From Deltaproteobacteria bacterium (GTDB taxonomy: Bacteria; Desulfobacterota; BSN033; UBA1163): a DNA stretch of 57,068 bases. The stretch covers positions 1-57,068 of the forward strand of contig JAGVBT010000014.1 of NCBI GenBank assembly GCA_020059605.1. Reading direction: 5' to 3'. How positions within the stretch are numbered: position 1 is the stretch's first letter; the number at the start of each line of letters is the position of its first letter. A program made the translations under genes and the position numbers. The notes beneath the pieces are model-generated. The model was not told the DNA's origin and did no database searches. It worked only from the letters and a program-made list of their open reading frames with translations. Positions 8,689 to 33,229 of the stretch are shown one piece after another.

Positions 8689-10586
8689 AAAAAGAAGCCT
8701 GGTTCGGACTCTCGATCATGGCTGTGGTGGTGATTACGGTATTCATTTTGATGCCCTCTCCCTCGCAGATGACCACCGGCCACCTCGGCTTGCTGATGCT
8801 TGCCATGATCGTTGTGGCGATCATGCTCGGCTTTCCCACCGCATTCACGCTGATGGGTATGGGCACGATGTTCACCTGGTTTGCCTATCATAGCGTAAAC
8901 CCGGAACTTGCGGTGAAACAAACACTCGACCTGATGGTGCAGCGCGCCTACGCAGTCATGAATAACGACGTGCTGGTTGCGGTTCCCCTCTTCGTCTTTA
9001 TGGGCTACCTGGTCCAGCGTGCCAACCTGATCGAAAAGCTGTTCACGAGTTTGCACCTGGTCACCTCGCGAATACCGGGATCATTAGCCGTCGCAACGAT
9101 TGTCACCTGTGCGATTTTTGCTACAGCCACCGGCATTATTGGCGCAGTGGTAACGCTGATGGGCTTGCTCGCGTTTCCGGCCATGCTAAAAGCCGGATAC
9201 GGCATCAAGCTCTCAGCAGGCGCGATCACCGCAGGCGGCACCCTCGGCATCCTGATCCCGCCGTCTGTGCTTCTCATCCTTTACGGCGCCACCGCCGGTG
9301 TCTCGGTGGTGCAGCTCTACGCCGGCGCTTTTTTCCCGGGCATCATGCTGGCCACGCTCTACATCGGATACGTCATCGTTTTGGCGAAACTCAAACCCGA
9401 CGTTGCCCCTCCTCTGTCCGAGGAAGAGCGACGCGTGGATTTGCCGACATTCGCTGAGATCATCTCCAGAGTCAGAAGCAAAAACGTTATGGCAGGCCTG
9501 ATCGGCGCCATCAAGGGAAAGCGCAATGCCGAGGTGCCGATGCGCACCTTGTTCAATCAACTGGTCATCGCACTGTTGCCGATTTTAGCCGTTGGCCTGC
9601 TCATGGGCTCGATCTATATGTCTTTGACGGCGCCCGAAAGCAAGGTGCCCGAGGGTGTCGTCCCAATGGGCATGGCTTTCGAATTGCCGGAAGAGGAAAT
9701 AAAGGCTGAAGATTTCGGGGGGTTGCAAGAGCCGGAAGTTGCCCGTGAAGAAGAACCGCTTCCTTCCGAAACCGTTTCCGAAAGCCAGGAGGAACCTGCC
9801 GAGGGGGAGCCGGTTCCCCCCGGAGGACGAAAGCCTGCCCCTACGGGTTACTGGATCGCCCTTGGCATCAGCGCATTGGGACTTGTGGTTTTTTATACCT
9901 TTTTCACCTTCACCCGGCTCGAGCTCTTCAAAATGCTTCTCTCATCATTCTTCCCGCTGGCGATCCTGATCCTTGGAGTGCTCGGCACCATCATTCTTGG
10001 CCTGGCGACGCCGGGCGAGGCCGCGGCGATGGGATCGTTCGGTGGCTTGGTGCTGGCGGCCGCTTACGGACAAATTAACTTCAGAATGGTAAAGGAATCG
10101 GTCTTCCTCACGGCAAAAACAAGCGCAATGGTTTGCTGGCTCTTCATCGGCTCAAGCATGTTCGCAGCGGCATTCGCCCTGCTCGGCGGGCAGGAACTCA
10201 TCAATGAGTGGGTGAAGTCACTCGACATGACGCCAATACAATTCATGATCCTGGCGCAGATCATCATCTTTCTGTTAGGCTGGCCGCTGGAATGGACCGA
10301 AATCATCGTCATCTTCATGCCGATCTTCATCCCGTTGCTGGCACATTTCCAAATCGATCCACTCTTTTTCGGCCTGCTGGTCGCGCTAAACTTACAAACC
10401 GCATTCCTGTCTCCGCCGGTCGCCATGGCCGCATTTTACCTGAAGGGCGTAGCGCCGCCGCATGTGACGCTCAACCAGATCTTTCTCGGGATGATGCCCT
10501 TCATGGCGATCCAGGTCATTGCCATTGTCATCCTATACGTATTCCCGGCCATCGGGTTGTGGTTGCCGGGTTTGGTCTATAGATAA
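8685..10586 (+). CDS. dctM: TRAP transporter large permease subunit with about 150-residue internal insertion
   Basis: A 633-residue DctM-type permease that carries out Na+- or H+-coupled uptake; ordinary members are about 430 residues. It starts with GTG at 8685 behind AAGGAGGG. The first half is standard (AGGTLGILIPPSVLLILYG near residue 190) and so is the second (LGLATPGEAAAMGSFGG near 440). Between about residues 240 and 410 there is extra sequence: a helix (LVIALLPILAVGLLMGSIYM), a Pro/Glu-rich loop (about 315-385) and a further helix. The first inserted helix with its TAPES motif resembles the normal helix ending in ATPGEA, which suggests a partial internal duplication. Long DctM proteins are known in the mannitol/chloroaromatic TRAP group. 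Confidence 0.9.
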   Translation: MKKEAWFGLSIMAVVVITVFILMPSPSQMTTGHLGLLMLAMIVVAIMLGFPTAFTLMGMGTMFTWFAYHSVNPELAVKQTLDLMVQRAYAVMNNDVLVAVPLFVFMGYLVQRANLIEKLFTSLHLVTSRIPGSLAVATIVTCAIFATATGIIGAVVTLMGLLAFPAMLKAGYGIKLSAGAITAGGTLGILIPPSVLLILYGATAGVSVVQLYAGAFFPGIMLATLYIGYVIVLAKLKPDVAPPLSEEERRVDLPTFAEIISRVRSKNVMAGLIGAIKGKRNAEVPMRTLFNQLVIALLPILAVGLLMGSIYMSLTAPESKVPEGVVPMGMAFELPEEEIKAEDFGGLQEPEVAREEEPLPSETVSESQEEPAEGEPVPPGGRKPAPTGYWIALGISALGLVVFYTFFTFTRLELFKMLLSSFFPLAILILGVLGTIILGLATPGEAAAMGSFGGLVLAAAYGQINFRMVKESVFLTAKTSAMVCWLFIGSSMFAAAFALLGGQELINEWVKSLDMTPIQFMILAQIIIFLLGWPLEWTEIIVIFMPIFIPLLAHFQIDPLFFGLLVALNLQTAFLSPPVAMAAFYLKGVAPPHVTLNQIFLGMMPFMAIQVIAIVILYVFPAIGLWLPGLVYR

Positions 10587-18295: not shown

Positions 18296-18502
18296 GGCAG
18301 CCAGTCTTAAGCTGCTTGGAATTTACCAAAAAAGATTCAAGAACACAAGCAAAAATATTTTTTTGGGTAACCCCAATGCCCGCCATTCAAGGTTTTGGAG
18401 GGAGGACCTTCCAACCCTTTTTGTGTTTCCTTAACTGACGGGTTACGTTTTGGGGTCAGTTTGATATTGACTGGCTTGTGAAGATTGGATACATTGATAG
18501 GG

Positions 18503-20431
18503 ATGAAGGAAAAATTATCCTCCCCCGCACCTGTTGCCCTGATCGCCCCCTACCCGGAAATGGCAGATCTGGCCAAGGAGATCTGCCGGGATTTTGAACA
18601 CCCGATTGTCATTGCCATGGGTGATTTAAAGGAAGGTCTCAGAAAAGGAAAGGAGTTGATCGAAAAGGGGGTCGAAGTCATGATCAGCCGGGGGGGAACA
18701 GCCAAATTATTGAAGGAACAATTCCCCATCCCAGTGGTCGAGATCCAGGTGACAGCTTATGACATTCTGGGAGCCCTCCAAAAAGTAAAAAATCGTCGCC
18801 AGAAAATCGGCATCGTCGGATTTGAAAACATAATCTATGGGTCCGAAAAACTGGCGGGCCTCCTGGAGTTAAATTTGACGGTTTTCCCCATCCAGAGGGA
18901 AGAGCAGGTCCCGTTCATTTTGGGGCAAGCCAAGAAAAATAGAATCGAGGTGATCATCGGGGACAAGGTCGTTGTGTCTCAAGCCGCTGAATTCGGCCAA
19001 CAATCCATTCTCATCGAATCTGGCAGGGAATCCCTCCTCCAATCCTTCCATGGAGCCTATGAGATTTTAAGCGTCGTCCGTTCGGAGGCCCAAAAGACCA
19101 AAAAACATCTGGATACCCTGACGCAATTAAAAGCGGTGCTGGATGCCGTCGACGATCAACTGATCATCCTGGATGCAAATGATCGCATTCAATCCTGCAA
19201 TCCGGCGGCATCCCTGACATTTAGAAGGGAGGGGGTTGAATTCATCGGGTCTCCTTTCCACCTGTATCCGACCGATCCTCTCAAAGAAATGAAAAGGAAG
19301 CGGACGGCCCAAAGAAATTATCTCGGCTATGTCCAGGGGAAACACGTCCTGCTGGATTATGTCCCCATTGAGGCAAACGGGGAGAGGACGGGAACCCTGA
19401 TTGTGGGAAGAAGCATTTCCAAACTCCAACAGGCAGAGAGAAAGGTCCGTCATGAACTCTATCTCAAAGGGCATGTGGCCAGATACTCTTTTGCAGACAT
19501 CCTCACGGAGGATGAACGCTTTCAGGCAGTTGTGAACCGGGCAAAGAGTTTCTCCAGCGCCGAGTCGACGGTTCTCATCATCGGAGAGACGGGGACGGGC
19601 AAAGAGCTGTTTGCCCAAAGCATCCACCAAGAAAAATTTGGTTCGGAAAGGCCTTTCGTGGCCATCAACTGCGCCACCCTGCCGGAGCCTTTGTTGGAAA
19701 GCGAGCTCTTCGGCTATGCCCCAGGTGCTTTCACCGGGGCGAGAAAGGAGGGGAAAAAAGGTCTCTTTGAATTGGCTCATGGAGGAACCCTTCTCCTTGA
19801 CGAGATCAGTGAATTGCCTTTGAATTTACAGAGCCGGCTATTGAGGGTCATTGAAGAGAGGGAAGTCCAGCCCATTGGAGATGACAAGGTAATTCCCATT
19901 GACGTCCGCATCATCGCCACGACCAACAAATATCTCTCAAGAGAAGTGAAAGAAAAGCGATTCAGGGGAGATTTATTTTACCGATTAAATGTTCTGCAGC
20001 TCAATGTGCCACCTCTGAGGGAAAGAGGAAAAGATGCCTATGCTCTTTTCAGGCATTTTATCCTTAGAATAAATCCGAAATGCCAAAAGAGAGATCTATT
20101 TGATAAGGACGTGGAAACACTTTTATGTAATTATCAATGGCCGGGAAATATTCGGGAGTTAAAAAATCTCGTAGAAAGACTGGCCAATCTCACGGATAAT
20201 TTTAATCGCAAACTCCGGGACCTACCGAAGTGGGTGCATGAGGAACTTCAAAAACCCGATGAACCTGAAGACACACACTTAGATCTGAAACAGGAAGATT
20301 TGAACCTTAAAAAGATGGAGCAAGAATGGATCAAGAAGATATCCGAATCCTCACCTTCCAAAAAGGCTGAATTGGCCAAGCGCCTTGGCATCAGCCGAAC
20401 TACCCTGTGGAAAAAGATAAAACTAGTCTAG
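18503..20431 (+). CDS. Sigma-54-dependent activator with PrpR_N sensor, PAS and AAA+ domains
   Basis: A regulator of about 642 residues. It has a PrpR-type N-terminal sensor (about 10-180; LIAPYPEMADLAKEI, SRGGTAKLLKE), a PAS domain (about 205-310; VLDAVDDQLIILDANDRI), and an AAA+ domain with Walker A GETGTGKE (near 358), the sigma-54 contact loop GAFTGA (near 408) and LLLDEISELP. A Fis-type helix-turn-helix (AKRLGISRTTLWKKI) ends the protein. PrpR_N proteins sense small organic acids or their CoA-pathway intermediates. The start is uncertain: ATG 18503, or TTG 18485; neither has a good Shine-Dalgarno. A dyad AACTGAC...GTCAGTT lies at 18433-18461. The obvious target is the sigma-54 promoter at 20573. 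Confidence 0.92.
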   Translation: MKEKLSSPAPVALIAPYPEMADLAKEICRDFEHPIVIAMGDLKEGLRKGKELIEKGVEVMISRGGTAKLLKEQFPIPVVEIQVTAYDILGALQKVKNRRQKIGIVGFENIIYGSEKLAGLLELNLTVFPIQREEQVPFILGQAKKNRIEVIIGDKVVVSQAAEFGQQSILIESGRESLLQSFHGAYEILSVVRSEAQKTKKHLDTLTQLKAVLDAVDDQLIILDANDRIQSCNPAASLTFRREGVEFIGSPFHLYPTDPLKEMKRKRTAQRNYLGYVQGKHVLLDYVPIEANGERTGTLIVGRSISKLQQAERKVRHELYLKGHVARYSFADILTEDERFQAVVNRAKSFSSAESTVLIIGETGTGKELFAQSIHQEKFGSERPFVAINCATLPEPLLESELFGYAPGAFTGARKEGKKGLFELAHGGTLLLDEISELPLNLQSRLLRVIEEREVQPIGDDKVIPIDVRIIATTNKYLSREVKEKRFRGDLFYRLNVLQLNVPPLRERGKDAYALFRHFILRINPKCQKRDLFDKDVETLLCNYQWPGNIRELKNLVERLANLTDNFNRKLRDLPKWVHEELQKPDEPEDTHLDLKQEDLNLKKMEQEWIKKISESSPSKKAELAKRLGISRTTLWKKIKLV

Positions 20432-20452
20432 TCTGCATTTCATCCCCTTATT

Positions 20453-20488
20453 GTTCATAATATAAACAAAAACGTTTAATAAATGAAC
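20453..20488 (+). promoter_or_regulatory. Probable upstream activator site (dyad) for the sigma-54 promoter
   Basis: GTTCATAATATAAAC, a six-nt spacer, then GTTTAATAAATGAAC: 11 of 15 positions are complementary, in an outer GTTCAT/ATGAAC and an inner TAAAC/GTTTA block. Its centre is about 129 nt before the predicted start site, a usual distance for enhancer-binding activators. A further partial half-site (TGAACTTTTTAAAC) follows directly. Confidence 0.6.
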
Positions 20489-20572
20489 TTTTTAAACAAA
20501 AACTGATCCTCCTCCATATCGGTAGAAAAATAATTCGTTGAAATCATTATGATATTTTATTGCTACCTCCAT

Positions 20573-20588
20573 TGGCACATCTATTGCT
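20573..20588 (+). promoter_or_regulatory. Sigma-54 (-24/-12) promoter
   Basis: TTGGCACATCTATTGCT: GG at 20574-20575 and GC at 20586-20587 are separated by exactly ten nt, and the flanks match the consensus TGGCAC-N5-TTGC. The expected transcript start is near 20599, only about five nt before the kinase ATG at 20604. Confidence 0.85.
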
Positions 20589-20603
20589 CTCCACCATAAA
20601 CAA

Positions 20604-21914
20604 ATGGTTCAACGATGCCTTCTCATTGCCGACGATCTCACCGGTGGGGCCGATGCAGGTGCCCAGTTTGCCAAAAGAGGTCTTAACACACTTTTAATCT
20701 TTTGCAAGGATCATACAAAGATCGACTTCTCCCAATATGCCCATCGGGATGTACTGGTTGTTAATACCGACTCGAGAGGGTTAACCCCTGAGAAAGCCTC
20801 CTCCCTTATATCCAATCTTCTCAAGACCTATCATCCAAAGGTCTTTCCTATCATTTATAAAAAGATCGATTCAACCCTCCGCGGAAATTTAGGATATGAG
20901 ATCGATACCATTCTAAAAGAAATGAATGGCGCGCTCGGTTTTATGGCTCCCTCCTATCCTGAACAGAACCGGAGGTTGGTGGGGGGAATCATGATCATTG
21001 GAGAAAAACCCCTCGCCCTGACAGAAGTCGCACAAAACACAACCTCCCCGATCCAGGAATCCCATGTCGATAAACTTCTCCAGCAACAATCCCGTAACCG
21101 TGTGGGGTGGATTGATATCACGCTCGTGGCTTCGGGCGTCGAACGTTTGAAAGAAATGGTGGAAAGAGAACAGAACAAAGGGACGAAAATTATTATCTTT
21201 GATGCGGGGAGCCGGCAGGATCTGACAAATGTGGCAGAGGTGGGTTTCTCACTTGAAAGCAAGCCTCTCTTCATCGGGTCAGCTGGACTGGCTGAAGAGG
21301 TGGCAAAGAAGATATCTTCTTCCCAACTCCATCCAAGGTCTTTGAAATCTTATAAACATGTCCTGATCGTGTGTGGGACAGCTTCCAGTGTTACCCATCA
21401 GCAATTAAGGCGTTTAGAATTTAGAAAAATTCCGGTGTTTCAGCTTAACCCATCCCTATTCATCGGGGACTTTTCTGAAGGGGAGAGCGAGAGGAAAGAT
21501 ATCTCCAGGAGGATTGGGAATTGTTTGTCCCGTGGAATAACCATCCTAAAGACCATACCAGAGATGCTCCATTCCGAACATTCAAACGATCTTCCAATTT
21601 CCCTGAAAATCTCAAAGACCCTGGCCGAAATTACCCTCTCGGCCTTAGCACAATCCAGAGTGGAGGTACATGATTTAGCTCTCCTCCTCACAGGCGGAGA
21701 CACGGCTCAGGGCGTCATCAATCGTCTTGACATTTCTGGGATTGAGATCGAAGGTGAACTCTTAGAGGGAATCGTTCAGACCCATCTGACGGGAGGGAAA
21801 TGGGACGGTCTTTTGCTCATCACCAAGGCGGGAGCCTTTGGAAAGGAAGATGCCTTAGAAAAGATTATCACTATCCTTGAGAAAGGAACCCCGCTCGACA
21901 AGGAGGAAGGATGA
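20604..21914 (+). CDS. Four-carbon acid sugar kinase family protein (DUF1537; OtnK/DtnK-like)
   Basis: A 436-residue kinase of the former DUF1537 family, which phosphorylates C4 acid sugars such as D-threonate, D-erythronate or 2-oxo-tetronates. The N-terminal domain starts LLIADDLTGGADAGAQFA and contains NTDSRGLTPEKA and KKIDSTLRGNLGYE. The C-terminal nucleotide-binding domain contains LFIGSAGLAEEV, LLLTGGDTAQGV and TKAGAFGKEDAL. Length is typical. The start is fixed by the family N-terminus, leaving almost no leader and no Shine-Dalgarno behind the sigma-54 promoter. A PdxA-like dehydrogenase is in the same cluster (31001), the known partner in D-threonate/D-erythronate breakdown. The next gene begins 2 nt after its stop. 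Confidence 0.9.
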   Translation: MVQRCLLIADDLTGGADAGAQFAKRGLNTLLIFCKDHTKIDFSQYAHRDVLVVNTDSRGLTPEKASSLISNLLKTYHPKVFPIIYKKIDSTLRGNLGYEIDTILKEMNGALGFMAPSYPEQNRRLVGGIMIIGEKPLALTEVAQNTTSPIQESHVDKLLQQQSRNRVGWIDITLVASGVERLKEMVEREQNKGTKIIIFDAGSRQDLTNVAEVGFSLESKPLFIGSAGLAEEVAKKISSSQLHPRSLKSYKHVLIVCGTASSVTHQQLRRLEFRKIPVFQLNPSLFIGDFSEGESERKDISRRIGNCLSRGITILKTIPEMLHSEHSNDLPISLKISKTLAEITLSALAQSRVEVHDLALLLTGGDTAQGVINRLDISGIEIEGELLEGIVQTHLTGGKWDGLLLITKAGAFGKEDALEKIITILEKGTPLDKEEG

Positions 21915-21915
21915 A

Positions 21916-22944
21916 ATGAAGGCACTGATCAAAGATCGACCTGTGAGAGGTGCAACATTCAGGGACATTCCCATTCCAGAAATTGGAGATCACGACCTTT
22001 TAGTAAAAGTGCAGGCTGCTGCAATTTGCGGAACCGATATCCATATCTATCAGTGGAATGAGTATGCTGCTTCGAGAATGAAACTCCCACTCCTTTTCGG
22101 GCACGAATATGCTGCAGAGGTCGTTGAGATTGGTAAAAATGTGACGAATTTCAAGAAGGGTGACCGGGTCGCGGCCGAAACCCATGTCCCCTGTGGCCAC
22201 TGTTTCCAGTGCACCACCGGCCTCCAGCATATCTGCAAGGACATGAAGATTCTCGGAGTTCATATGGACGGCGCCTTCTCGGAATATGCCGTCCTCCCGG
22301 CCGCCTGCGCCTGGACACTGGCTCCCTCCATCTCTTACGAGATTGGGGCCACGATGGAACCCTTTGGAATCGGAGTCCACGCCATGTCCAAAACAAAACC
22401 CGCGGGAAAGAAAGTGATCGTGTTCGGTTGCGGGCCGATTGGAATCTACGCCCAGATGGTGGCAAAGCTGAGTGGAGCGGAGTATGTCATTGGGGTTGAT
22501 GTGACTCAGAAAAGGCTGGACCTCGCTCGTAAGATGGGCACAGATATCGTTCTCAATGCAAAGGAGGTCAATGTCTTTGAGGAGGTTGATCAGATCACAA
22601 GGGGATTGGGCACGGACATCGTGGTGGAACTTACCGGCAACAGGGGGGTGCTCAATGACGCCTCGAAGACGCTGCGACGAGGAGGCGATATCGTCCTTGT
22701 CGGCCTCTTCTCCGGGCCGGTCGAGTGGGATCTGGTTAACAACGTCATTTACAAAGAAGCAAACGTTTATGGCGTGACAGGCCGGATTATGTGGGACACC
22801 TGGTGGACCGCCCAGAGCATGCTCCTTTCCGGGAAGATGGATATCCGACCGGTCATCACGCACCGTTTTGATCTGAAAGATTACGACCAGGCGTTCCAGT
22901 TGGCCCAATCGGCTTCAACGGGAAAGATCGTTTTTGAAATTTAA
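21916..22944 (+). CDS. Zinc-dependent alcohol dehydrogenase, L-threonine 3-dehydrogenase/polyol dehydrogenase type
   Basis: A 342-residue medium-chain dehydrogenase. The catalytic-zinc Cys is in AAICGTDIHIYQW (near residue 38) with GHEYAAEVVEIG. The structural-zinc cysteines are seen in CGHCFQCTTGLQHIC. The NAD site is VFGCGPIGIYAQM. It closely resembles L-threonine 3-dehydrogenase in length and motifs, but the setting beside a C4 acid sugar kinase suggests a sugar acid or polyol substrate. AGGAGGAAGG lies 5 nt upstream of the chosen ATG; an earlier ATG at 21911 runs straight into a stop. It is the second gene of the sigma-54 operon. Confidence 0.88.
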   Translation: MKALIKDRPVRGATFRDIPIPEIGDHDLLVKVQAAAICGTDIHIYQWNEYAASRMKLPLLFGHEYAAEVVEIGKNVTNFKKGDRVAAETHVPCGHCFQCTTGLQHICKDMKILGVHMDGAFSEYAVLPAACAWTLAPSISYEIGATMEPFGIGVHAMSKTKPAGKKVIVFGCGPIGIYAQMVAKLSGAEYVIGVDVTQKRLDLARKMGTDIVLNAKEVNVFEEVDQITRGLGTDIVVELTGNRGVLNDASKTLRRGGDIVLVGLFSGPVEWDLVNNVIYKEANVYGVTGRIMWDTWWTAQSMLLSGKMDIRPVITHRFDLKDYDQAFQLAQSASTGKIVFEI

Positions 22945-22970
22945 GTGCAGAGAGAAGAAAGGAGACCGCC

Positions 22971-23828
22971 ATGAACCAGGAAAAACATACGGTTCGTACC
23001 ATCCAGGAGATGAAAGACCGCAGCGAGATCATCACCATGCTCACGGCCTATGACTATCCGATTGCCAAACAGATCAATGACGCCGGCATCGATATGATTC
23101 TGGTCGGGGATTCGGCGGCCATGGTCGTCCACGGACATCCCAACACGCTCACGGCAACGATGGACATGATGGTCCTGCATTGCGCAGCCGTTGCCCGCGC
23201 CTGCACCCGCACCATGGTCATCGCCGACATGCCTTTCGGCTCGTTCCAGTATTCCGTGGAAGAGACCATGCGGAATGCCGCCCGGTTTGTCACCGAGGCA
23301 AAGGTGGATGGTGTTAAGTTCGAAGCAACCCCCAACCACATCGAAAAGACCCGTGCCATCGTCCAGATGGGTATCGCGGTGATGGGGCACGTCGGTCTGC
23401 ACCCCCAGGCGGTCGGGGCCTTGGGAGGCTTAAAGGTTCAGGGCAAGTCCATTGAGACGGCCCGCAAAGTCGTCAGTGAAGCGCTCGCCCTGCAGGAGGC
23501 AGGGGCCTTCGCCATCATCTTCGAGGCCGTCCCGGCCAAACTCTCCGCTTACGTGACCAAGAAGCTGCGGGTGCCGACCATCAGCATCGGCGGAGGCCCG
23601 GGGTGCAGCGGACAACTGCTCGTCACCTACGACGTGCTGGGGATGTTTGACACCTTCACCCCCACCTTTGCCAAAAAATTTACCAATCTCAACAAACTGA
23701 TCAAGGACACCTTCCTCCAGTATCGCCAGGAGGTGCTCGACCGTAAATTCCCGGGCGAAGAGCACAGCTACGGCATGTCCGATGAAGTGATGGAGGTCAT
23801 TGAAAAGGAATTTGGCAAATCGAAGTGA
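22971..23828 (+). CDS. PanB-like ketopantoate hydroxymethyltransferase homologue, divergent
   Basis: A 285-residue TIM-barrel of the PanB family, which transfers a hydroxymethyl group from methylene-THF to 2-oxoisovalerate. Conserved parts include TMLTAYDYPIAKQ, the metal Asp in LVGDSAAM and in IADMPFGS, VKFEA and the catalytic Glu in IIFEAVP. Departures: the usual VKIEGG is VKFEAT, and the usual GAG-x3-DGQ-x4-HD stretch reads GGGPGCSGQLLVTYD. No panC or panD is nearby. It sits in a catabolic operon, 26 nt after the dehydrogenase, so it may act on a different 2-oxoacid or in the retro-aldol direction. Confidence 0.8.
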   Translation: MNQEKHTVRTIQEMKDRSEIITMLTAYDYPIAKQINDAGIDMILVGDSAAMVVHGHPNTLTATMDMMVLHCAAVARACTRTMVIADMPFGSFQYSVEETMRNAARFVTEAKVDGVKFEATPNHIEKTRAIVQMGIAVMGHVGLHPQAVGALGGLKVQGKSIETARKVVSEALALQEAGAFAIIFEAVPAKLSAYVTKKLRVPTISIGGGPGCSGQLLVTYDVLGMFDTFTPTFAKKFTNLNKLIKDTFLQYRQEVLDRKFPGEEHSYGMSDEVMEVIEKEFGKSK

Positions 23829-23858
23829 AACAGAGACGGAAAGACATGGGAGAAAAAG

Positions 23859-24821
23859 ATGGAAATCAAACAAGCAATCATCACCGGATTTATGGGGAAG
23901 CTGAAAGACCGTTTCAGCGAGTATCATGAATCGAAAACCCCCGTGGAGAAAATCGCCGCTGTCGCCAAAGTCAAGGGCGCCAAGGGAGTGGAAATTGTCT
24001 ATCCTTACGAGCTGCAGGATCTGGATCGGATCAAAAAAACCCTGAAACGATATCGCCTTGGAGTGGCAGCCGTGAATGTCAATATCAAAGGCGAACCCGA
24101 ATTCGTTAAAGGATCTTCGAGCGTCAATTCGAAGAAGCTCAGAGACAAGGCCATCCAATTCATCTGCGAGGGCATGGACGTCGCAGCAAAACTCGGCGCC
24201 GATAAAGTGACCTGTTGCCCTCTCAGTGATGGCTATGACTACCTCTTTCAGGTCGATTACCAGCAGGCATGGAGGAATATGGTTTCCACCTTCAAGGAAG
24301 CAGCGAGGCATCGGAAAGACATCTTTCTTTTTCTTGAATACAAAGGCTCTGAGACCCGTGTCAACTGTTACCTGGACACGGCTGCAAAAACCCTCTGCAT
24401 GATCCGCGACATCAACGAGCCCAATCTTGGAATCACCATTGACGTGGGGCATTCACTGATGGTGGGGGAGACGGTGGCCGAGTCCCTCTGCCTTGCCCAA
24501 TCCAGCGGCATCCCCTATTACATCCATATCAACGACAACAATAAAAAATGGGATTGGGACCTCATCCCCGCCACGCGAAATCTGTGGGACTACCTGGAGA
24601 TGCTGTTCTACCTGAAGAAATTCAATTACCGCGGCTGGGTAACCTCGGACATGAGCCCCGTGCGGCTTGATCCCATTGCCGCCTTTGAAAGAACCATCGA
24701 CACAACGGAAAAGATGATCAAGATTGTCAAGCGGCTCGATTCAAAGAAACTCGAATCGATGATCCGGGAGGAGAGGACGATTGAAACGTTAACGTGGCTG
24801 GAGGAGCAGGTGTTGCGCTAA
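23859..24821 (+). CDS. Sugar phosphate isomerase/epimerase-like TIM-barrel protein
   Basis: A 320-residue protein of the xylose-isomerase-like TIM-barrel (AP_endonuc_2) superfamily. Metal-ligand positions are seen as Glu in FLFLEYKGSE, Asp and His in GITIDVGHSL and His in YYIHINDNNKKWDWD. Related short members include hydroxypyruvate isomerase and 2-oxo-tetronate isomerase (OtnI), which work with C4 acid sugar kinases. This protein is about 60 residues longer than OtnI, with an extended helical C-terminus. It follows panB by 30 nt, ending before the TctC gene. The substrate is not determinable from sequence alone. Confidence 0.78.
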   Translation: MEIKQAIITGFMGKLKDRFSEYHESKTPVEKIAAVAKVKGAKGVEIVYPYELQDLDRIKKTLKRYRLGVAAVNVNIKGEPEFVKGSSSVNSKKLRDKAIQFICEGMDVAAKLGADKVTCCPLSDGYDYLFQVDYQQAWRNMVSTFKEAARHRKDIFLFLEYKGSETRVNCYLDTAAKTLCMIRDINEPNLGITIDVGHSLMVGETVAESLCLAQSSGIPYYIHINDNNKKWDWDLIPATRNLWDYLEMLFYLKKFNYRGWVTSDMSPVRLDPIAAFERTIDTTEKMIKIVKRLDSKKLESMIREERTIETLTWLEEQVLR

Positions 24822-24946: not shown

Positions 24947-25954
24947 ATGAAAAAGTATTGTTTATTGGCGTTCTTGTTCGTATTTGTCCTTTCAGGTCTG
25001 AGTTTAGCACAGGAGAAAAAATTTCCTGTCCGGGATATCACCAATACGGTCGTCTGGGCGGCCGGCGGCGGAACCGATGTCTGTAACCGCATCGTCTCCG
25101 GTGAAATGGCCAAGATTTTTAAAGTGAACATCAATGTGATCAACAAGCCCGGCGGGGTGGGCGGATCGATCGGTATGAACGATGTCTATTCCCGGCCCCA
25201 TGACGGATACGCCTGGGCTGGGGTATCCGAATCCTGTGTAACTGCCGGTGTCCAGGGAGGATGGGACAAGAGGATGTATGTATGGGACTACTTTATCGTT
25301 GGTGGCTCTCCCGATGTCATTTCCGTAACACCCAACGCACCCTATAAAGATCTTAAAGAACTGATGGAAGCTGCAAAGGCCAAACCGGGTTCCATTCGAG
25401 CTGGCGCAAGCGCCTCAGGATCCATCCATCACCTCAATCTATTGGCCCTTGAGAAGGGAGCAGGGGTGAAGTTCAATTATATCCCCTACCCAGGATCAGC
25501 CCCTGCTCAGACTGCCGCGATGACGGGTGAAGTCTCTGTCGTTGTCACATCGGTTGCTGAACAGCAACAGCTTATCAGAGCCGGTAAATTACGGCCACTT
25601 GCGATGCTGACACCCCAACCGTTCACGATGAAAGATGTGGGAGCCATTCCCTCTTCTTTCGTTCCTTATCCGGGCCTCTCGAAGTACCTGCCTATCATGC
25701 AAGCCATTGGTTTTGCCGTGCCGGCAACCGTTCCAGAGAATGTGAAGGAAACCATTGCAGATACTTTCAAAAAAGCGCTTGCAACAGATACGATAAAAAA
25801 CTGGGCAGATTCAAACTATTACACGCTTTCAGGTAAAACCGGAAAGGCCGCCAAGGAGGAGTTTGAAAAATTGGAATCACTTTTTGCCTGGACCCTTTGG
25901 GAGCTGGGGGCGGCAAAAGTGAATCCCGAAACACTGAAGATTCCCAAACCGTAA
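24947..25954 (+). CDS. tctC: Tripartite tricarboxylate transporter substrate-binding protein (TctC/Bug)
   Basis: A 335-residue periplasmic binding protein of the Bug/TctC family. A Sec signal peptide is clear (MKKYCLLAFLFVFVLSGLSLAQ, cleavage after about residue 22). The mature part has VVWAAGGGTDVCNRIV, NKPGGVGGSIGMNDV and GEVSVVVTS, all family-typical. It binds organic acids in the periplasm and delivers them to TctAB. AAAGGAGGAAG precedes the ATG. It begins the transporter block of the cluster; two TctA genes follow tctB, so one binding protein may serve two permeases. Confidence 0.9.
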   Translation: MKKYCLLAFLFVFVLSGLSLAQEKKFPVRDITNTVVWAAGGGTDVCNRIVSGEMAKIFKVNINVINKPGGVGGSIGMNDVYSRPHDGYAWAGVSESCVTAGVQGGWDKRMYVWDYFIVGGSPDVISVTPNAPYKDLKELMEAAKAKPGSIRAGASASGSIHHLNLLALEKGAGVKFNYIPYPGSAPAQTAAMTGEVSVVVTSVAEQQQLIRAGKLRPLAMLTPQPFTMKDVGAIPSSFVPYPGLSKYLPIMQAIGFAVPATVPENVKETIADTFKKALATDTIKNWADSNYYTLSGKTGKAAKEEFEKLESLFAWTLWELGAAKVNPETLKIPKP

Positions 25955-26064
25955 TGATGGATGATGTGCTTCGAGCCTGCCGCATGCAGGCTCGAAGCAT
26001 GAAACGGGTCATCCTCCCCACCCCTATTCTTAAACTAAGAGAATCGGGAAATTTGAGGAAAGTT

Positions 26065-26811
26065 ATGGATAAAGTTCAACTGAGAAAAAAAGATTTTATC
26101 ACCAGTATCATTTTAATCGCCTTTGGAATCTTTATGATCCTTTATACCCTCACGGAAATCCCCATGAAGGACAGCTGGGGAGGAGTGATGAACGTCTGGT
26201 TCGTTTCCCCCGGGCTCTTTCCGTTGGGCGTCGGTTTCCTCATCATCATCATGGGAATCGTCCTGTGCAACCGGGCGATCAAGGACGGAGGGGCGAAGAA
26301 GTTCATGGAAGACCTCTCCCGCCGGGAGAAGGACACGTCCGGGAAGACGCTTCGCCTCCTTGGAATTCTTCTCGTCATTGTCGCTTACGTTTATCTCTAT
26401 ATTCCAAGGATCGATTATTTCTTGAGCACCATGCTCTGCCTGATGGTCTTTATCTCCTTTTTCTATTTCGACCGGCCGGATTTTTTAAAAAAGCTTTTCA
26501 CCTTCTATCTCGTCGGCTGCCTTCTTTTCCTGGGACTTTTTCTGATGAAGGCGGACAAACAGCTCAACAAAAGCTTTCTCTATACCACGGATGGCCTGGT
26601 CTTCCTGTTCTTTCTGGCCTTTATCGTTTACTCCAGGGTGCTTGTTCACGGGGATGGGGTGTTGAAGAAGAGGTGGAAGACCACCCTGATCATGTCGATT
26701 GTTCCCTCCCTCATCCTCATTCCTTCGTTTAAGTACTTCCTGCTCGTTCCCCTTCCTGTGGAGGGAGCATTTATTGAGCTGATGAATATCATCCGTTACT
26801 CCTTCCGTTAA
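26065..26811 (+). CDS. tctB: TctB-family small permease subunit
   Basis: A 248-residue inner-membrane protein. The start ATG at 26065 (MDKVQLRKKDF) is preferred, with GAGGAAA just upstream; longer in-frame starts overlap tctC and lack a ribosome-binding site. Hydrophobic segments lie near residues 12-32, 45-67, 95-112, 120-138, 145-163, 175-190 and 205-225, more than the four usual in TctB. The first half (SIILIAFGIFMILYTLTEIP, then GLFPLGVGFLIIIMGIVL) matches TctB. The extra C-terminal helices are not typical. Confidence 0.78.
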   Translation: MDKVQLRKKDFITSIILIAFGIFMILYTLTEIPMKDSWGGVMNVWFVSPGLFPLGVGFLIIIMGIVLCNRAIKDGGAKKFMEDLSRREKDTSGKTLRLLGILLVIVAYVYLYIPRIDYFLSTMLCLMVFISFFYFDRPDFLKKLFTFYLVGCLLFLGLFLMKADKQLNKSFLYTTDGLVFLFFLAFIVYSRVLVHGDGVLKKRWKTTLIMSIVPSLILIPSFKYFLLVPLPVEGAFIELMNIIRYSFR

Positions 26812-26850
26812 GCAAGGGAAGGAAAAGAACGGTAAACAGACAGGGACGTT

Positions 26851-28374
26851 ATGCTCATCCTCGAACGAATCTGGGATTTCTATGTGACCGTTTTTTTCAC
26901 CGCCTTCAATATCGAGAATATCATCCTCTTATTCGGTTCCGTCATTCTGGGAATCATCTTCGGTGCTATGCCGGGTTTGACGGCAACTCTTGGCGTAGGC
27001 CTTCTGACGACACTGACCTATGGGATTAGCACAAACGCGGCCATGATCACTCTTCTTGGGATGTATGTAGGAGCAGTCTATGGAGGTTCTTATGGTTCGA
27101 TCTGCGTCAACATCCCAGGAACCGCCGCGGCAGCAGCTACTGCCATGGACGGCTATCCATTGGCCTGCAAGGGAGAAGCAGGAAGGGCCTTGGGTCTCAC
27201 CACAACCTCCTCCTTTATTGGAACCATGGTGGGGATGTTTTTTCTCGCTGTCTTTGCTCCGATCATTGCTACACTGGCTCTCCAATTTACCTCCTTCGAA
27301 TTCTTCTTCTTAGCCTTTTTCGGAATTATGATCAGCGGAGGGTTAACCGGTCAGGATCTCGTTTACAAAGGTTGGATTTCAGGACTCATAGGCCTTTTTT
27401 TAGCGCTAATCGGAAGGGATCATCTCCAGTTCTTTCCGCGGTTCACCTTTGGCATTTCTGAATTGGACGGAGGGCTTGAAGTGGTGCCCGTTCTTATCGG
27501 CGCTTTCGGAATTCCACAGATCATCCAGGTCATTCGGGATCAATTGTCGATTGGAGAAGCCAAAAAATTTCAGCGCGTTCTTCCTGAACTGAAGATCATC
27601 TCCAAACACATTACGACCATTGTCCGTTCAGCCCTCATCGGCGTTGGAATTGGAGCGGTTCCAGGCATTGGAGAGGATATTGCTGCATGGGTTTCTTACG
27701 GCGCTGCGAAAAAGGCGTCTAAACATCCTGAAAACTTTGGGAAAGGAGAATATGCTGGGGTTATCTCCTGCGAAACCGGAAACAATGCCTGTATTGGCGG
27801 GGCTATCATTCCGCTCTTAACCCTCGGCATACCGGGTAGCCCGCCGGCAGTCATGCTTCTCGGAGCCCTGATGATCCATAACGTCACCCCAGGGCCCATG
27901 CTATCCATTGAACATCCTCACTTTATCACAGAGATGATAGCCATTCTCTTTCTGGCATCCTTTGCCATGTTCATCAGCGGTATCTTTCTCGCAAAACAGG
28001 TGGTGAAGGTCTTGCGGATTCCACCTCCCATCTTTATGCCAGTGGTCCTCACGCTCTGCGTCATCGGCTCCTATGCCCTTGGGACGAAGGTGTTTAATCT
28101 CTATCTGATGGTGCCGGTAGGCATCCTGGCCTATTTCATGCAATCGATGGGATATCCCATTGCTCCTCTTGTTATTGGAGTCATTTTAGGACCTATGGCT
28201 GATGAAAATCTTCGAAGGGCTTTAATGGTTTCCCAGGGAAGTTTCTTGCCCTTCTTCACCCGACCCGTTGCTCTTATCCTCTTTTTAGTCATTGTCTGGA
28301 TGTTCATCAGCCAGACGCCCTTCTATAAACGGTTCCTGGGAGGAGTGAAGGCCAGAATATTCAAACAGGAGTAA
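26851..28374 (+). CDS. tctA: TctA-family large permease subunit, copy 1
   Basis: A 507-residue integral membrane protein with about ten to twelve helices. Family motifs are GIIFGAMPGLTATLGVGLL, GGSYGSICVNIPGTAAAAAT with DGYPLA, GVGIGAVPGIGEDIAAWVSY and LTLGIPGSPPAVMLLGALM. Together with TctB and TctC it imports organic acids. It lies 39 nt after tctB. It is about three-quarters identical (by eye) to the next gene, but third codon positions here use more A and T, so the two are not a recent duplication. Confidence 0.92.
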   Translation: MLILERIWDFYVTVFFTAFNIENIILLFGSVILGIIFGAMPGLTATLGVGLLTTLTYGISTNAAMITLLGMYVGAVYGGSYGSICVNIPGTAAAAATAMDGYPLACKGEAGRALGLTTTSSFIGTMVGMFFLAVFAPIIATLALQFTSFEFFFLAFFGIMISGGLTGQDLVYKGWISGLIGLFLALIGRDHLQFFPRFTFGISELDGGLEVVPVLIGAFGIPQIIQVIRDQLSIGEAKKFQRVLPELKIISKHITTIVRSALIGVGIGAVPGIGEDIAAWVSYGAAKKASKHPENFGKGEYAGVISCETGNNACIGGAIIPLLTLGIPGSPPAVMLLGALMIHNVTPGPMLSIEHPHFITEMIAILFLASFAMFISGIFLAKQVVKVLRIPPPIFMPVVLTLCVIGSYALGTKVFNLYLMVPVGILAYFMQSMGYPIAPLVIGVILGPMADENLRRALMVSQGSFLPFFTRPVALILFLVIVWMFISQTPFYKRFLGGVKARIFKQE

Positions 28375-28419
28375 GGAGTGATGGGCTCCGTTAAACCCTC
28401 AGCACGATAGGGAATAATC

Positions 28420-29955
28420 ATGACCATCCTTGAACAACTGGGAACCTTCTATTCGCAGGTTTTCCAACTGGCGTTCAATCTTGAAAATATCATCATCCTC
28501 TTTTCCGCAACGATTCTGGGGATCATCTTCGGCGCCATGCCCGGCCTGACCGCAACGCTGGGGGTGGCTCTCCTGACGACGCTGACCTACGGGATGAATA
28601 CAGGGGCGGCCATGATTGCGCTCATATCAATGTACGTCGGGGCTGTCTACGGCGGATCTTACTCTTCGATCCTGCTCAACATTCCGGGAACCGCAGCGGC
28701 GGCGGCGACCGCCATCGATGGATACCCCCTGGCCTGTAAAGGTGAAGCCGGAAAAGCCCTCGGTCTGACAACAACCGCCTCAATGATTGGAACGCTCATT
28801 GGCACCTTCTTTCTTGCCTCCTTTGCCCCGGCCATCGCCAAGATGGCCCTTCAGTTTACCTCCTTTGAATTCTTTCTCCTCGCTTTCTTCGGCATTCTCA
28901 TCAGCGGAACCCTGACGAGTCCTGATCTCATCTACAAAGGTTGGATTGCGGGCCTGATCGGTCTCTTCATGTCGATCATCGGCCGGGACCGCCTACAGTT
29001 CTTCCCCCGGTTTACGTTCGGCTTATCGCAACTCGATGGGGGGCTCGAGCTGGTCCCTGTCCTAATCGGGGCCTTCGGGATCCCCCAGATCATCCAGGTG
29101 TTGAGAGACCAGTTATCGGTCGGGGAAGCCAAAAAGTTTCAACGCGTTCTTCCCGAATTCAAAACCATCGTGAGAAACGCAACCCATATCGTCCGCTCCG
29201 CATTGATCGGTGTCGGGATTGGATCGGTGCCCGGTATCGGCGAGGATATTGCGGGATGGGTTTCCTACAGTGCTGCCAAAAACTCTTCCAAACATCCTGA
29301 AACCTTCGGGAAGGGCGAATATGCAGCCGTCATCTCCTCGGAGACGGCCAACAACGCCTGTATCGGGGGAGCCCTGATTCCTCTCTTAACGTTAGGTATC
29401 CCTGGAAGTCCACCAGCAGCGATGCTCCTGGGCGCATTGATGATCCACAACGTCAACCCCGGGCCCATGATCACTTTTGAGCATCCCACCTTCATTCTGG
29501 AAATGACAGCCATCCTCCTTCTGGCTTCGCTGGCGATGTGGATGACAGGGATCCTGCTGGCCAAGCAGGTCGTAAAGGTGCTCAGAATTCCTCCTCCCAT
29601 CTTCATGCCGATCGTTGGGGTTCTCTGTGTGATCGGCTCCTACTCCCTGGGATCGAATGTTTTCAACCTCTATCTCATGGTGCCTGTGGGGATCATGGCC
29701 TATTTCATGCAGGAGATGGGTTATCCGGTTGCCCCGCTTGTCATAGGTGTCATCCTGGGTCCCATGGCCGACGAAAACCTCCGGAGGGCTCTGATGGTCT
29801 CGCAGGGCAGTTTCCTGCCTGTCATCACGCGGCCGGTGGCGCTCCTCCTCTTTTTGATCATCCTCTTCACCATCTTTAGCCAGACGCTGGTTTACAAGCG
29901 ACTCAAGGAACGGGTCAAACAAAGAATATGGAACCAAATACGAAATAAAAAATAG
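28420..29955 (+). CDS. tctA: TctA-family large permease subunit, copy 2
   Basis: A 511-residue paralogue of the preceding gene with all the same motifs (GIIFGAMPGLTATLGVALL, LNIPGTAAAAATAIDGYPLA, GVGIGSVPGIGEDIAGWVSY). Codon third positions are richer in G and C than in copy 1. Usual TTT operons have one TctA, so this tandem pair with a single TctB and TctC is unusual. It may transport a second substrate or form mixed complexes. The aldo-keto reductase gene starts 12 nt after its stop. Confidence 0.92.
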   Translation: MTILEQLGTFYSQVFQLAFNLENIIILFSATILGIIFGAMPGLTATLGVALLTTLTYGMNTGAAMIALISMYVGAVYGGSYSSILLNIPGTAAAAATAIDGYPLACKGEAGKALGLTTTASMIGTLIGTFFLASFAPAIAKMALQFTSFEFFLLAFFGILISGTLTSPDLIYKGWIAGLIGLFMSIIGRDRLQFFPRFTFGLSQLDGGLELVPVLIGAFGIPQIIQVLRDQLSVGEAKKFQRVLPEFKTIVRNATHIVRSALIGVGIGSVPGIGEDIAGWVSYSAAKNSSKHPETFGKGEYAAVISSETANNACIGGALIPLLTLGIPGSPPAAMLLGALMIHNVNPGPMITFEHPTFILEMTAILLLASLAMWMTGILLAKQVVKVLRIPPPIFMPIVGVLCVIGSYSLGSNVFNLYLMVPVGIMAYFMQEMGYPVAPLVIGVILGPMADENLRRALMVSQGSFLPVITRPVALLLFLIILFTIFSQTLVYKRLKERVKQRIWNQIRNKK

Positions 29956-29967
29956 GGAAGGGACAAA

Positions 29968-30954
29968 ATGGAATACAGGCGTCTCGGCAGATCAGGACTG
30001 ATGGTATCCCCCCTGGTCCTGGGCACGATGAACTTCGGAAACCCGACCAGCAGGGAGGAGTCTTTCCGCATGATCGATCGGGCCATCGAGACCGGGATCA
30101 ACCTGGTCGACTCCGCCGATGTTTATGCGGAAGGCGAAAGTGAAAGAATTCTCGGCGAGGCGCTGGCACGAAATGGAAAAAGAAAAGACATCTTCATCAC
30201 CTCAAAGGTCTTTATGAGTACGGGGCCAGGGCCAAATGATGCCGGCAATTCAAAACACCATATCCTCGAAAGCTGTGAGGCAAGTTTAAAGAGACTGAGG
30301 ACCGATTATATTGATATTTACTTTCTCCACCGCACAGATTTTGATATTCCTCAGGAAGAGTCGCTTGGAGCGTTAGACCTTCTGGTGAGACAGGGAAAGG
30401 TGAGATACATCGGATCCTCCACCCATCCTGCGTGGAGGATTGTAGAAGCTTTATGGATTTCCGATCGACATCATTATCCCAAATTGACTTGCGAACAACC
30501 GCCATATAACCTATTGGATCGCCGGATCGAAAACGAAATCATTCCGATGTGCCGGGTCTATGATCTCGGGCTCATCACCTGGTCTCCCCTGGCCCAGGGC
30601 GTTTTAGCGGGTCGGTATCAGGACCCATTCAACCTTCCCGATGGAAGCCGTGGCACCCTGAAGCCGGTCTATGCCGAACGGATCACTCAAAGAGGCATCG
30701 AGGTCAGCTTGAAACTGGAAGAGAGAGCGAAAGGAAAAGGATATACCGTCGCTCAACTTTCAGTCGCATGGGTCCTGACTCAAACGGGCGTCACAGGAGC
30801 GATCATCGGACCGAGGACATTAGGGCAACTGGAGGACCTTCTCCCTTCAGCCGATATCAAACTCGATGAATCCGACTTCCGTTTCTGCGATAAGTTGGTT
30901 CCCCCTGGGACGAATGTCTCCAACCATTTTAATACCTCCCTGTGGATGAAATGA
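29968..30954 (+). CDS. Aldo/keto reductase, copy 1
   Basis: A 328-residue NADPH-type aldo-keto reductase. The catalytic tetrad can be seen: Asp and Tyr in NLVDSADVYAEGESE, Lys in FITSKVFM and His in YFLHRTDFD. The cofactor site includes IIGPRTLGQLEDLLPS. It resembles the YajO/L-glyceraldehyde-3-phosphate reductase-like group. It is closely linked to tctA copy 2 and probably acts on a sugar or sugar-acid carbonyl in the same pathway. GGGAAGGG is its ribosome-binding site. A second member follows pdxA. Confidence 0.88.
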   Translation: MEYRRLGRSGLMVSPLVLGTMNFGNPTSREESFRMIDRAIETGINLVDSADVYAEGESERILGEALARNGKRKDIFITSKVFMSTGPGPNDAGNSKHHILESCEASLKRLRTDYIDIYFLHRTDFDIPQEESLGALDLLVRQGKVRYIGSSTHPAWRIVEALWISDRHHYPKLTCEQPPYNLLDRRIENEIIPMCRVYDLGLITWSPLAQGVLAGRYQDPFNLPDGSRGTLKPVYAERITQRGIEVSLKLEERAKGKGYTVAQLSVAWVLTQTGVTGAIIGPRTLGQLEDLLPSADIKLDESDFRFCDKLVPPGTNVSNHFNTSLWMK

Positions 30955-31000
30955 TTCTCCGGTTTTGACCTGGGGATCGTCAGGTAGGATGGACTAAGAT

Positions 31001-32035
31001 ATGGTTAAACCAATCGTCGGAATCAGTGTCGGTGATCCTTCGGGGATTGGCCCCGAGATCACAGCCAAGGCGCTCTCTCTGTCTGAGGTTTATCGGCTTT
31101 GCAACCCCTTGGTGATCGGAGAGGCAAAGATGATGGGGCAAGCAGTGAAATTTTCCGGTTTGGATTTGAAGATTCATGTCGTCTCTTCTCCCAGGGGAGG
31201 CCTTTATCAGCCTGGAACGATCGATCTTCTTGATCTGAAGAATGTCGATGGGAAATCGGTCCGGCACAAATCGATCCTGGCTGAATATGGCCGCGCCTCG
31301 TTTGAATATGTGAAGAAAGTGATCGAACTGGCCTTGGAAAAAGAGATTGATGCCACCGTCACCGGTCCCATCAGCAAAGAGGCCATCAACCTTGCGGGTT
31401 TTCATTATTCCGGGCATACGGAGATCTATGCCGACCTGACCCGGACCAAAGATTACGCCATGATGTTGGTCCATGACCACTTCCGGGTGATCCATGTCTC
31501 AACCCATGTTTCATTAAGAGAAGCCTGCGACCGTGTGAAAAAGGAACGGGTTTACCGGGTCATCCGGCTGGGATACGATGCGGTGAAGCGATTAGGGGTT
31601 CAGAATCCGAAGATCGCAGTCGCCGGACTGAATCCCCATGCCGGGGAGGAAGGGCTGTTCGGCCGGGAGGAAATAGAAGAGATCGAGCCTGCCATCAGAC
31701 ACGCTAAAAAAGATGGCTTAAACATCGAAGGGCCCCTTCCCCCGGACACGGTCTTTTCCAAGATGCAGGGCGGGCAATATGATCTGGTTGTGGTCATGTA
31801 TCACGATCAAGGCCATATTCCAACAAAGCTGATCGGCTTTCAATACGATGACAAGACAAAGACCTGGGGTTCCATGTCCGGGGTCAATATCACCTGCGGG
31901 CTGCCCATCATCCGTGTCTCGGTGGACCATGGAACGGCCTTTGGTAAGGCCGGTGAAGGCAGAGCTAATCCCGAAAGTATGATCCAGGCGATTAAAATAG
32001 CCGCCCAATTGGCTTTGAACAAACCCCGTTCGTAA
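31001..32035 (+). CDS. PdxA-family dehydrogenase (PdxA2-like, 4-phospho-threonate/erythronate type)
   Basis: A 344-residue metal- and NAD-dependent dehydrogenase of the PdxA family. Signatures are GISVGDPSGIGPEITAKAL, FHYSGHTEIYADLT (metal His), GLNPHAGEEGLFGREE, VVMYHDQGHIPTKLIGF and GTAFGKAGEGRANPESM. The vitamin B6 enzyme PdxA oxidises 4-phosphohydroxythreonine; PdxA2 paralogues instead oxidise 4-phospho-D-threonate or -erythronate after a DUF1537 kinase, giving dihydroxyacetone phosphate and CO2. The kinase at 20604 in the same cluster makes the PdxA2 role the better guess. No other B6 gene is nearby. Confidence 0.88.
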   Translation: MVKPIVGISVGDPSGIGPEITAKALSLSEVYRLCNPLVIGEAKMMGQAVKFSGLDLKIHVVSSPRGGLYQPGTIDLLDLKNVDGKSVRHKSILAEYGRASFEYVKKVIELALEKEIDATVTGPISKEAINLAGFHYSGHTEIYADLTRTKDYAMMLVHDHFRVIHVSTHVSLREACDRVKKERVYRVIRLGYDAVKRLGVQNPKIAVAGLNPHAGEEGLFGREEIEEIEPAIRHAKKDGLNIEGPLPPDTVFSKMQGGQYDLVVVMYHDQGHIPTKLIGFQYDDKTKTWGSMSGVNITCGLPIIRVSVDHGTAFGKAGEGRANPESMIQAIKIAAQLALNKPRS

Positions 32036-32128
32036 GTGTTCGACAGAGGAATGTCATCTTCATCCCCGCTGCGAGGAGCAGGACTTTCTAACGGGGGAAC
32101 AATCAGTGAAAAAGGGAGGTCGGTCAAT

Positions 32129-33172: not shown

Positions 33173-33229
33173 CCAAGGGGAGCCATTTAAAATAGAGGCG
33201 AATCTCGTCTGAAAGCAAAGAGGAACAAG

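Follow-up and report, generated by a model that had tools for sequence, protein, structure and literature searches.

A kinase gene in the stretch of Deltaproteobacteria bacterium DNA analysed here (57,068 nucleotides, below called the window) follows a sigma-54 promoter at such short distance that its message is predicted to begin only about five nucleotides before the ATG, and the same spacing recurs among the sigma-54 genes of the bacterial family to which the window belongs. We hold with good confidence that an activator-gated, near-leaderless sigma-54 start of the kinase, together with a division of the family's sigma-54 leaders into two length classes, best explains what we found. The DNA itself shows the promoter, the operator, the activator and kinase genes and the conservation of all four, as well as the ATG that the reading frame dictates, the lack of a Shine-Dalgarno (SD) sequence and the recurrence of the spacing. 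Below, G000 denotes the window's genome, other G numbers related genomes, and L numbers individual loci.

The kinase gene and its control region

The sigma-54 promoter that an earlier note on this DNA had placed before the kinase gene was borne out: TTGGCACATCTATTGCT is the only site in the window that agrees with the consensus at all 12 positions (Table 1), and four relatives keep a sigma-54 site there (below). Its GG and GC are separated by 10 nt in the context TTGGCAC-N5-TTGCT, and no other GG-N10-GC begins on the plus strand between 20300 and 20639; a further sigma-54 site driving the kinase was rejected for this reason, as was an alternative with 9- or 11-nt spacing, whose sole match is a GG-N9-GC inside the kinase gene itself. 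The pattern YTGGCAYN5TTGCW has 30 matches in the G000 genome and its reversed control has two, which argues that the kinase promoter site is not a chance occurrence. The RpoN DNA-binding domain was present in all seven genomes searched (PF04552 in G000), and an AAA+ activator with the GAFTGA loop is encoded nearby. Elsewhere in the window, at 6225 on the plus strand, a sigma-54-like site (TTGGCACTTTCGCTGCT) matches at 11 of 12 positions.

When C20587 is taken as position -12, the start convention that we infer, the predicted +1 falls five nt before the ATG, as the earlier note had estimated. According to the part of PMC3847290 available to us, sigma-54 motifs lie 8-13 nt upstream of the start in Campylobacter dRNA-seq data, which would give the kinase a leader of roughly 2-7 nt. 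The limit for calling a message leaderless varies among authors, and in the accessible portions of their papers it is 0 nt (PMC3616915), up to 5 nt (PMC3536570), 0-10 nt (PMC5243855) or <10 nt (PMC3815106). Set against the strict definition, in which the AUG is at +1, the predicted kinase leader is 5 nt long, or about 2-7 nt within the usual scatter of sigma-54 starts; by the looser ones (<=5 nt, or up to ~10 nt) a message with a 5-nt leader, an ATG and no SD, as predicted here, would count as leaderless. No Rfam leader element was matched in the window at gathering scores.

That the ATG is required, as the earlier note held, follows from the reading frame: 18 codons upstream the frame is closed by a TGA, with no ATG, GTG or TTG in between, every in-frame ATT (the nearest is at 20583) lies upstream of the predicted +1, and the next in-frame ATG, GTG or TTG is at +323 relative to +1, well beyond the conserved IADDLTG motif. 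A downstream alternative start, including the conserved one that the earlier note had named as a way in which it could be wrong, was rejected on the last of these grounds. The claimed lack of an SD also stood, since no match of at least 4 nt precedes the ATG, and the 16S rRNA of G000 has a normal anti-SD tail. The absence of an SD is by itself weak evidence, because 30 of the window's 49 ORFs, as crudely called, have none of at least 5 nt.

The protein has both SBD_N (184.4 bits) and NBD_C (77.1 bits) above the Pfam cut-offs and carries IADDLTGG near its N-terminus, DDLTG being what we take to be the mark of the DUF1537 four-carbon acid sugar kinase family. By these domains and this motif it belongs to DUF1537; tetronate kinase activity is a prediction. 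Its nearest solved chain is 4xfm_A (E 1.7e-29), and the solved relatives are 4xfm, 4xfr, 1yzy, 5dmh and 3dqq. The three genes next downstream (Table 1) are probably in the same operon as the kinase, and the longer run behind them, in which the tctB gene is named from its place alone and not by Pfam, is perhaps co-transcribed as well, judging from its orientation. Two features of the cluster deserve mention: two full-length TctA genes stand in tandem behind one TctC (26851-28374 and 28420-29955), and the PanB-like gene (22971-23828) sits within an apparently catabolic cluster. The 13.3-kb locus of G002 (L031) gave no match to the PanB-like gene, and the dehydrogenase and isomerase-like genes there are 1.9 kb apart (at 8353-10289).

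Pfam likewise agrees with the earlier note that the adjacent activator is of the PrpR_N type (PrpR_N 158 bits, followed by Sigma54_activat, whose translation holds the GAFTGA loop, and HTH_8; a PAS-like stretch scores below the cut-off). At the level of the locus its neighbours are the DUF1537 kinase, alcohol dehydrogenase, PanB-like and Tct genes and not a methylcitrate (prp) operon, and we therefore call it PrpR_N-type and not PrpR. Between activator and promoter the earlier note had described a GTTCAT/ATGAAC dyad at about -129; the position stands, and the element is better described as a predicted operator of 36 bp, centred at -128, in which 6 bp separate the palindromes GTTCATAATATAAAC and GTTTAATAAATGAAC, each of 15 bp, so that they stand in a 21-bp register. 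A search of seven genomes with an operator pattern of 16 fixed bases found it at a single place each in G000, G002, G005 and G010, always directly upstream of the kinase, with no control matches, and second copies elsewhere were thereby rejected for these four; the pattern was absent from G009, where one palindrome is degenerate, and from G017 and G018.

Table 1. Positions in the window of the features discussed in the text
Feature	Positions	Strand	Basis
Sigma-54 activator (enhancer-binding protein)	18485-20431	+	Pfam PrpR_N, Sigma54_activat, HTH_8; ORF from TTG 18485
Predicted operator (UAS), palindromes GTTCATAATATAAAC and GTTTAATAAATGAAC	20453-20488	.	Sequence and relatives
Sigma-54 -24/-12 promoter TTGGCACATCTATTGCT	20572-20588	+	12/12 consensus positions
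Predicted +1 and 5-nt leader AACAA, without SD	20599-20603	+	Inferred start convention, C at -12
Four-carbon acid sugar kinase-like protein, SBD_N and NBD_C, ATG start	20604-21914	+	Pfam
Zinc alcohol dehydrogenase, PanB-like, xylose-isomerase-like	21916-24821	+	Pfam; synteny in relatives
TctC, presumed TctB, two TctA, aldo/keto reductase, PdxA, aldo/keto reductase, BKACE	24947-34051	+	Pfam

The kinase locus in related genomes

Activator, operator, promoter and kinase are kept together in four relatives, G002, G005, G009 and G010, in each of which an activator orthologue (68-80% identical) lies directly upstream of the kinase; the G009 and G010 loci contain only the C-terminal two thirds of the activator. 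The predicted palindromic operator is present at all five kinase loci that have the promoter, that of G009 with one degenerate palindrome. Its centre lies at -128 in G000, -127 in G005, -127 in G009, -138 in G002 and -140 in G010 relative to the predicted +1. The two spacing groups are 10-13 bp apart, close to one helical turn, as would be expected of an activator that has to face the polymerase. The control unit of activator and dyad proposed in the earlier note is therefore kept in all four relatives, with an operator-promoter spacing that is not fixed and varies by about one turn. For two further kinases, those of G017 (62% identical) and G018 (48%), upstream stretches of 300 and 260 bp, respectively, contain no sigma-54 site.

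Is the short leader kept as well? The predicted kinase leaders are 5 nt in G000, 4 nt in G005 and 3 nt in G010, so that three of the five promoter-bearing loci are near-leaderless; compared over the same interval, then, the relatives uphold the arrangement of promoter, operator, activator and kinase and not a universal short leader. G009, whose site reads ATGGCAC and hence falls outside the TTGGCAY pattern used below, has a leader of 39 nt with an SD-like AAGGGGG before the ATG. In this locus (L011, reverse strand) a GTGGTTC stands at the near-leaderless position, out of frame and 35 nt before the SD-bearing start. Lying at +5, it is similar to the ATGGTTC that the window has at +6; a short insertion may therefore have moved the G009 kinase start, leaving GTGGTTC as the displaced old one. 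G002 is the closest relative (kinase 71% and activator 80% identical), and its kinase leader is 173 nt long, has no clear SD and consists in part of a short repeat (L031, ~5840-5950) with an inverted GCCGAAC/GTTCGGC end. This end has exact matches at two places in G002 and none in four relatives, and the label "mobile element" is accordingly not established for it. With leaders of 173 and 39 nt in G002 and G009, the short spacing is evidently not required for kinase function.

Leader lengths of sigma-54 genes in the family and beyond

In 16 genomes of the window's family, TTGGCAYN5TTGCW has 296 matches and its reversed control eight, and from this ratio we infer that most of the sites should be real promoters. 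We read 180 sites, namely all 30 of G000 and 150 of the 296 TTGGCAY matches in the 16 family genomes; these 150 (30 loci and 120 further stretches) are the matches listed less about a dozen, several of which lie at contig edges. The kinase loci L012 and L013 were read in addition and do not enter this total. Gene calls were ORFs of at least 80 codons and not annotated genes. An ORF begins 1-6 nt beyond the predicted +1 at 24 of the 180 sites, 22 of these starts being ATG (L128, with TTG, is doubtful, and L086 has GTG), and by the same rule none begins 7-12 nt beyond it, although for L033 a second ATG, with an SD and a leader of 12 nt, is the likelier start and would put one site in that bin. 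Pseudo-sites shifted upstream gave a mean of 1.1 over 40 shifts (maximum 14), or 0.3 when only ATG was counted (maximum 4). The other 6-nt bins downstream, up to 132 nt and including real leadered genes, hold 0-21 starts (ATG only, 0-15), so the 1-6 nt bin is the fullest, by a small margin when all start codons are counted and by a clear one for ATG. Choosing the best ORF for each site (146 sites) gave 24 at 1-6 nt, 0 at 7-12, 7 at 13-18, 8 at 19-24 and 13 at 25-30.

The two sides of the gap also differ in their SD sequences. An SD of at least 5 nt precedes none of the 24 starts with 1-6 nt leaders and 40 of the 60 with leaders of 13-60 nt, a class in which the best start was chosen within 20 codons and which is thereby biased toward having an SD; for SDs of at least 4 nt the values are 6 of 24 and 50 of 60. 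As predicted from sequence, therefore, the sigma-54 genes of the family form two classes, one near-leaderless and mostly with AUG (1-6 nt) and one leadered and mostly SD-bearing (>=13 nt). The 24 sites are not independent, since clustering placed members at 1-6 nt in only 10 of 67 orthologue sets (nine without L033). Pfam assigns their representatives, with the kinase, to eight families (response regulator, Nitro_FeMo-Co, DUF4124, DUF4388, Sigma54_activat, PilZ, Flg_hook/FliK and the kinase); the short-leader gene of L166 has no Pfam match, its orthologue L215 being outside the Pfam run. The near-leaderless spacing of the kinase gene, which the earlier note had called unusual in Gram-negative bacteria, is thus no isolated case in this family. 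Within orthologue sets the short leader is found at 6 of 6 DUF4124 loci, 3 of 3 FeMo-Co-like loci and 4 of 6 response regulator loci, a further one of which has TTG at 0 and ATG at 6.

At the opposite extreme from the near-leaderless genes, some sigma-54 promoters feed second-messenger riboswitch leaders: nine of 16 selected sigma-54 loci (L045, L059, L062, L084, L123, L136, L170, L184 and L218) have a riboswitch of the c-di-GMP-I or c-di-GMP-I-GGC type a short way downstream of the sigma-54 site.

Outside the family the pattern is less sharp. In other families of the phylum, 86 strict sites, of which 67 have an ORF, gave six leaders of 1-6 nt and four of 7-12 nt; L249, L260, L273 and L286 seem to be real cases, unlike L225 and L300, and several sites there have better starts further in. 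In other families of the class, 50 sites (38 with an ORF) gave three at 1-6 nt and one at 7-12 nt, and only L371 is convincing; it encodes a response regulator which, on visual comparison, is similar to the near-leaderless one in G000. With the 7-12 nt gap not seen outside, the sharp two-class pattern is seen, on these counts, in the window's family alone. Among 30 FliK loci across the phylum, three have leaders of 4-8 nt (4, 5 and 8; L273 and L299 are among the three), 11 have a sigma-54 candidate 18-32 nt upstream and 16 have no usable candidate, so FliK exemplifies conversion and not general conservation. Taken with the kinase, these predicted leaders indicate that orthologues convert between the near-leaderless and leadered classes.

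Could the near-leaderless spacing be an unselected by-product of compact intergenic regions, in which the start codon need only be far enough from the -12 element? Start codons become possible from +1 onward, orthologues swap short and long leaders (kinase, FliK), and leaders of 7-12 nt exist outside the family (4 of 67 in the phylum, 1 of 38 in the class), all of which such compaction would allow. It should also have filled the 7-12 nt bin, which in the family holds 0 of 180 sites (one if L033 uses its second ATG), and it does not account for a short-leader class with 22 of 24 ATG and no SD of at least 5 nt, nor for DUF4124, which keeps the short leader at all six loci. We regard this neutral origin as unlikely, though it is the strongest of the alternatives. 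The empty bin fits two routes of translation start, since leaders of intermediate length would serve neither an AUG at the 5' end nor an SD with its spacer.

A second possibility is that the kinase is translated mainly from a longer message begun upstream, for example at the promoter of the activator gene, the sigma-54 start being minor. Only 172 bp separate the kinase from the end of the activator gene, which has the same orientation, a search of 20380-20640 gave no terminator-like site, and the G002 kinase presumably works behind its 173-nt leader. An SD would be missing from such a message too, four relatives keep the sigma-54 site and the operator, and a simple scan of the plus strand from 20380 to 20640 found no sigma-70-like site, the other upstream promoter that the earlier note had said would count against it; we consider read-through quite improbable. 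Sigma-54 holoenzyme can occupy sites without firing, but a decoy role for the kinase site, bound and unproductive and blocking another start, is highly improbable beside a dedicated activator and a regularly spaced operator conserved together with it.

Proposed mechanism and relation to known systems

Our preferred reading, an activator-gated and near-leaderless start, would work as follows: the PrpR_N activator would sense a metabolite, probably a substrate or intermediate of the four-carbon-acid/tricarboxylate-transporter operon, bind the two palindromes, loop over ~128 bp and remodel RNA polymerase-sigma54 at the promoter; transcription from about 20599 would give a message with ~5 nt before the AUG, on which ribosomes would start by a leaderless-type route (recognition of the 5' end and AUG) and not by SD pairing. 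Sigma-54 promoters have very low basal activity, so a near-leaderless sigma-54 gene would join very tight switching to the simplest possible start of translation. In the family as a whole, near-leaderless, SD-independent starts may be read as a recurrent second mode of expression for sigma-54 genes, gained and lost between relatives. We propose more tentatively, and at somewhat less than even chances, that the sigma-54 regulons of this lineage use a dedicated near-leaderless output, with activator-gated promoters whose messages start 1-6 nt before the AUG. If that is true, an all-or-none transcription switch is coupled to SD-independent, leaderless-type initiation in genes of several recurring kinds (response regulator, FeMo-cofactor-like, DUF4124, DUF4388, FliK, PilZ, sigma-54 activator and kinase). 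The two length classes with a near-empty gap at 7-12 nt make a testable prediction about the leaders that these ribosomes can use, and gene finders that seek an SD may misplace near-leaderless starts.

Overall, the parts of the arrangement are known and their combination appears to be new; the earlier observation is confirmed and its interpretation partly supported. In the literature as available to us (including PMC3415461, PMC6615313 and PMC12403871, supplements aside) we found no description of sigma-54-driven leaderless genes as a class; single cases may already be in print. The word "leaderless" is absent from the text of PMC4641369 and PMC12316311, and "start codon" has no match in the accessible part of PMC6615313.

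The kinase resembles other DUF1537 kinases in having both SBD_N and NBD_C above cut-off and differs in its neighbours, which include PanB-like, alcohol dehydrogenase, tricarboxylate-transporter and BKACE genes. Its control by a one-component activator is like that of the conserved -24/-12 promoters in the regulons of Desulfovibrio vulgaris (PMC4641369) and the Clostridiales (PMC6615313), the latter of which include PrpR_N activators, as far as the available portions of these papers extend. In Sinorhizobium meliloti and Bradyrhizobium (PMC3616915 and PMC4842269, each in part), leaderless messages and sigma-54 promoters have been mapped in one organism, and the S. meliloti leaderless starts are all AUG; supplementary tables aside, the accessible text does not link the two sets to each other, and PMC4842269 (2016) states that specific promoters have not been described for leaderless genes. 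The leaderless messages described in the consulted sections of PMC12340547 and PMC3847290 are tied to sigma-70-type promoters, from which a link to sigma-54 would differ. In Deinococcus-Thermus the -10 box adjoins the ORF (PMC12340547), and in Campylobacter and Helicobacter leaderless genes likewise lie behind sigma-70 -10 boxes (PMC3847290). The kinase is like these genes in that its promoter abuts the ORF and no SD is present, and the Campylobacter and Helicobacter cases share with our family the ATG starts and the orthologues that convert to and from leaderless. It differs in that those genes use sigma-70-type -10 boxes, whereas the kinase has a predicted activator-dependent -24/-12 promoter with a distant operator.
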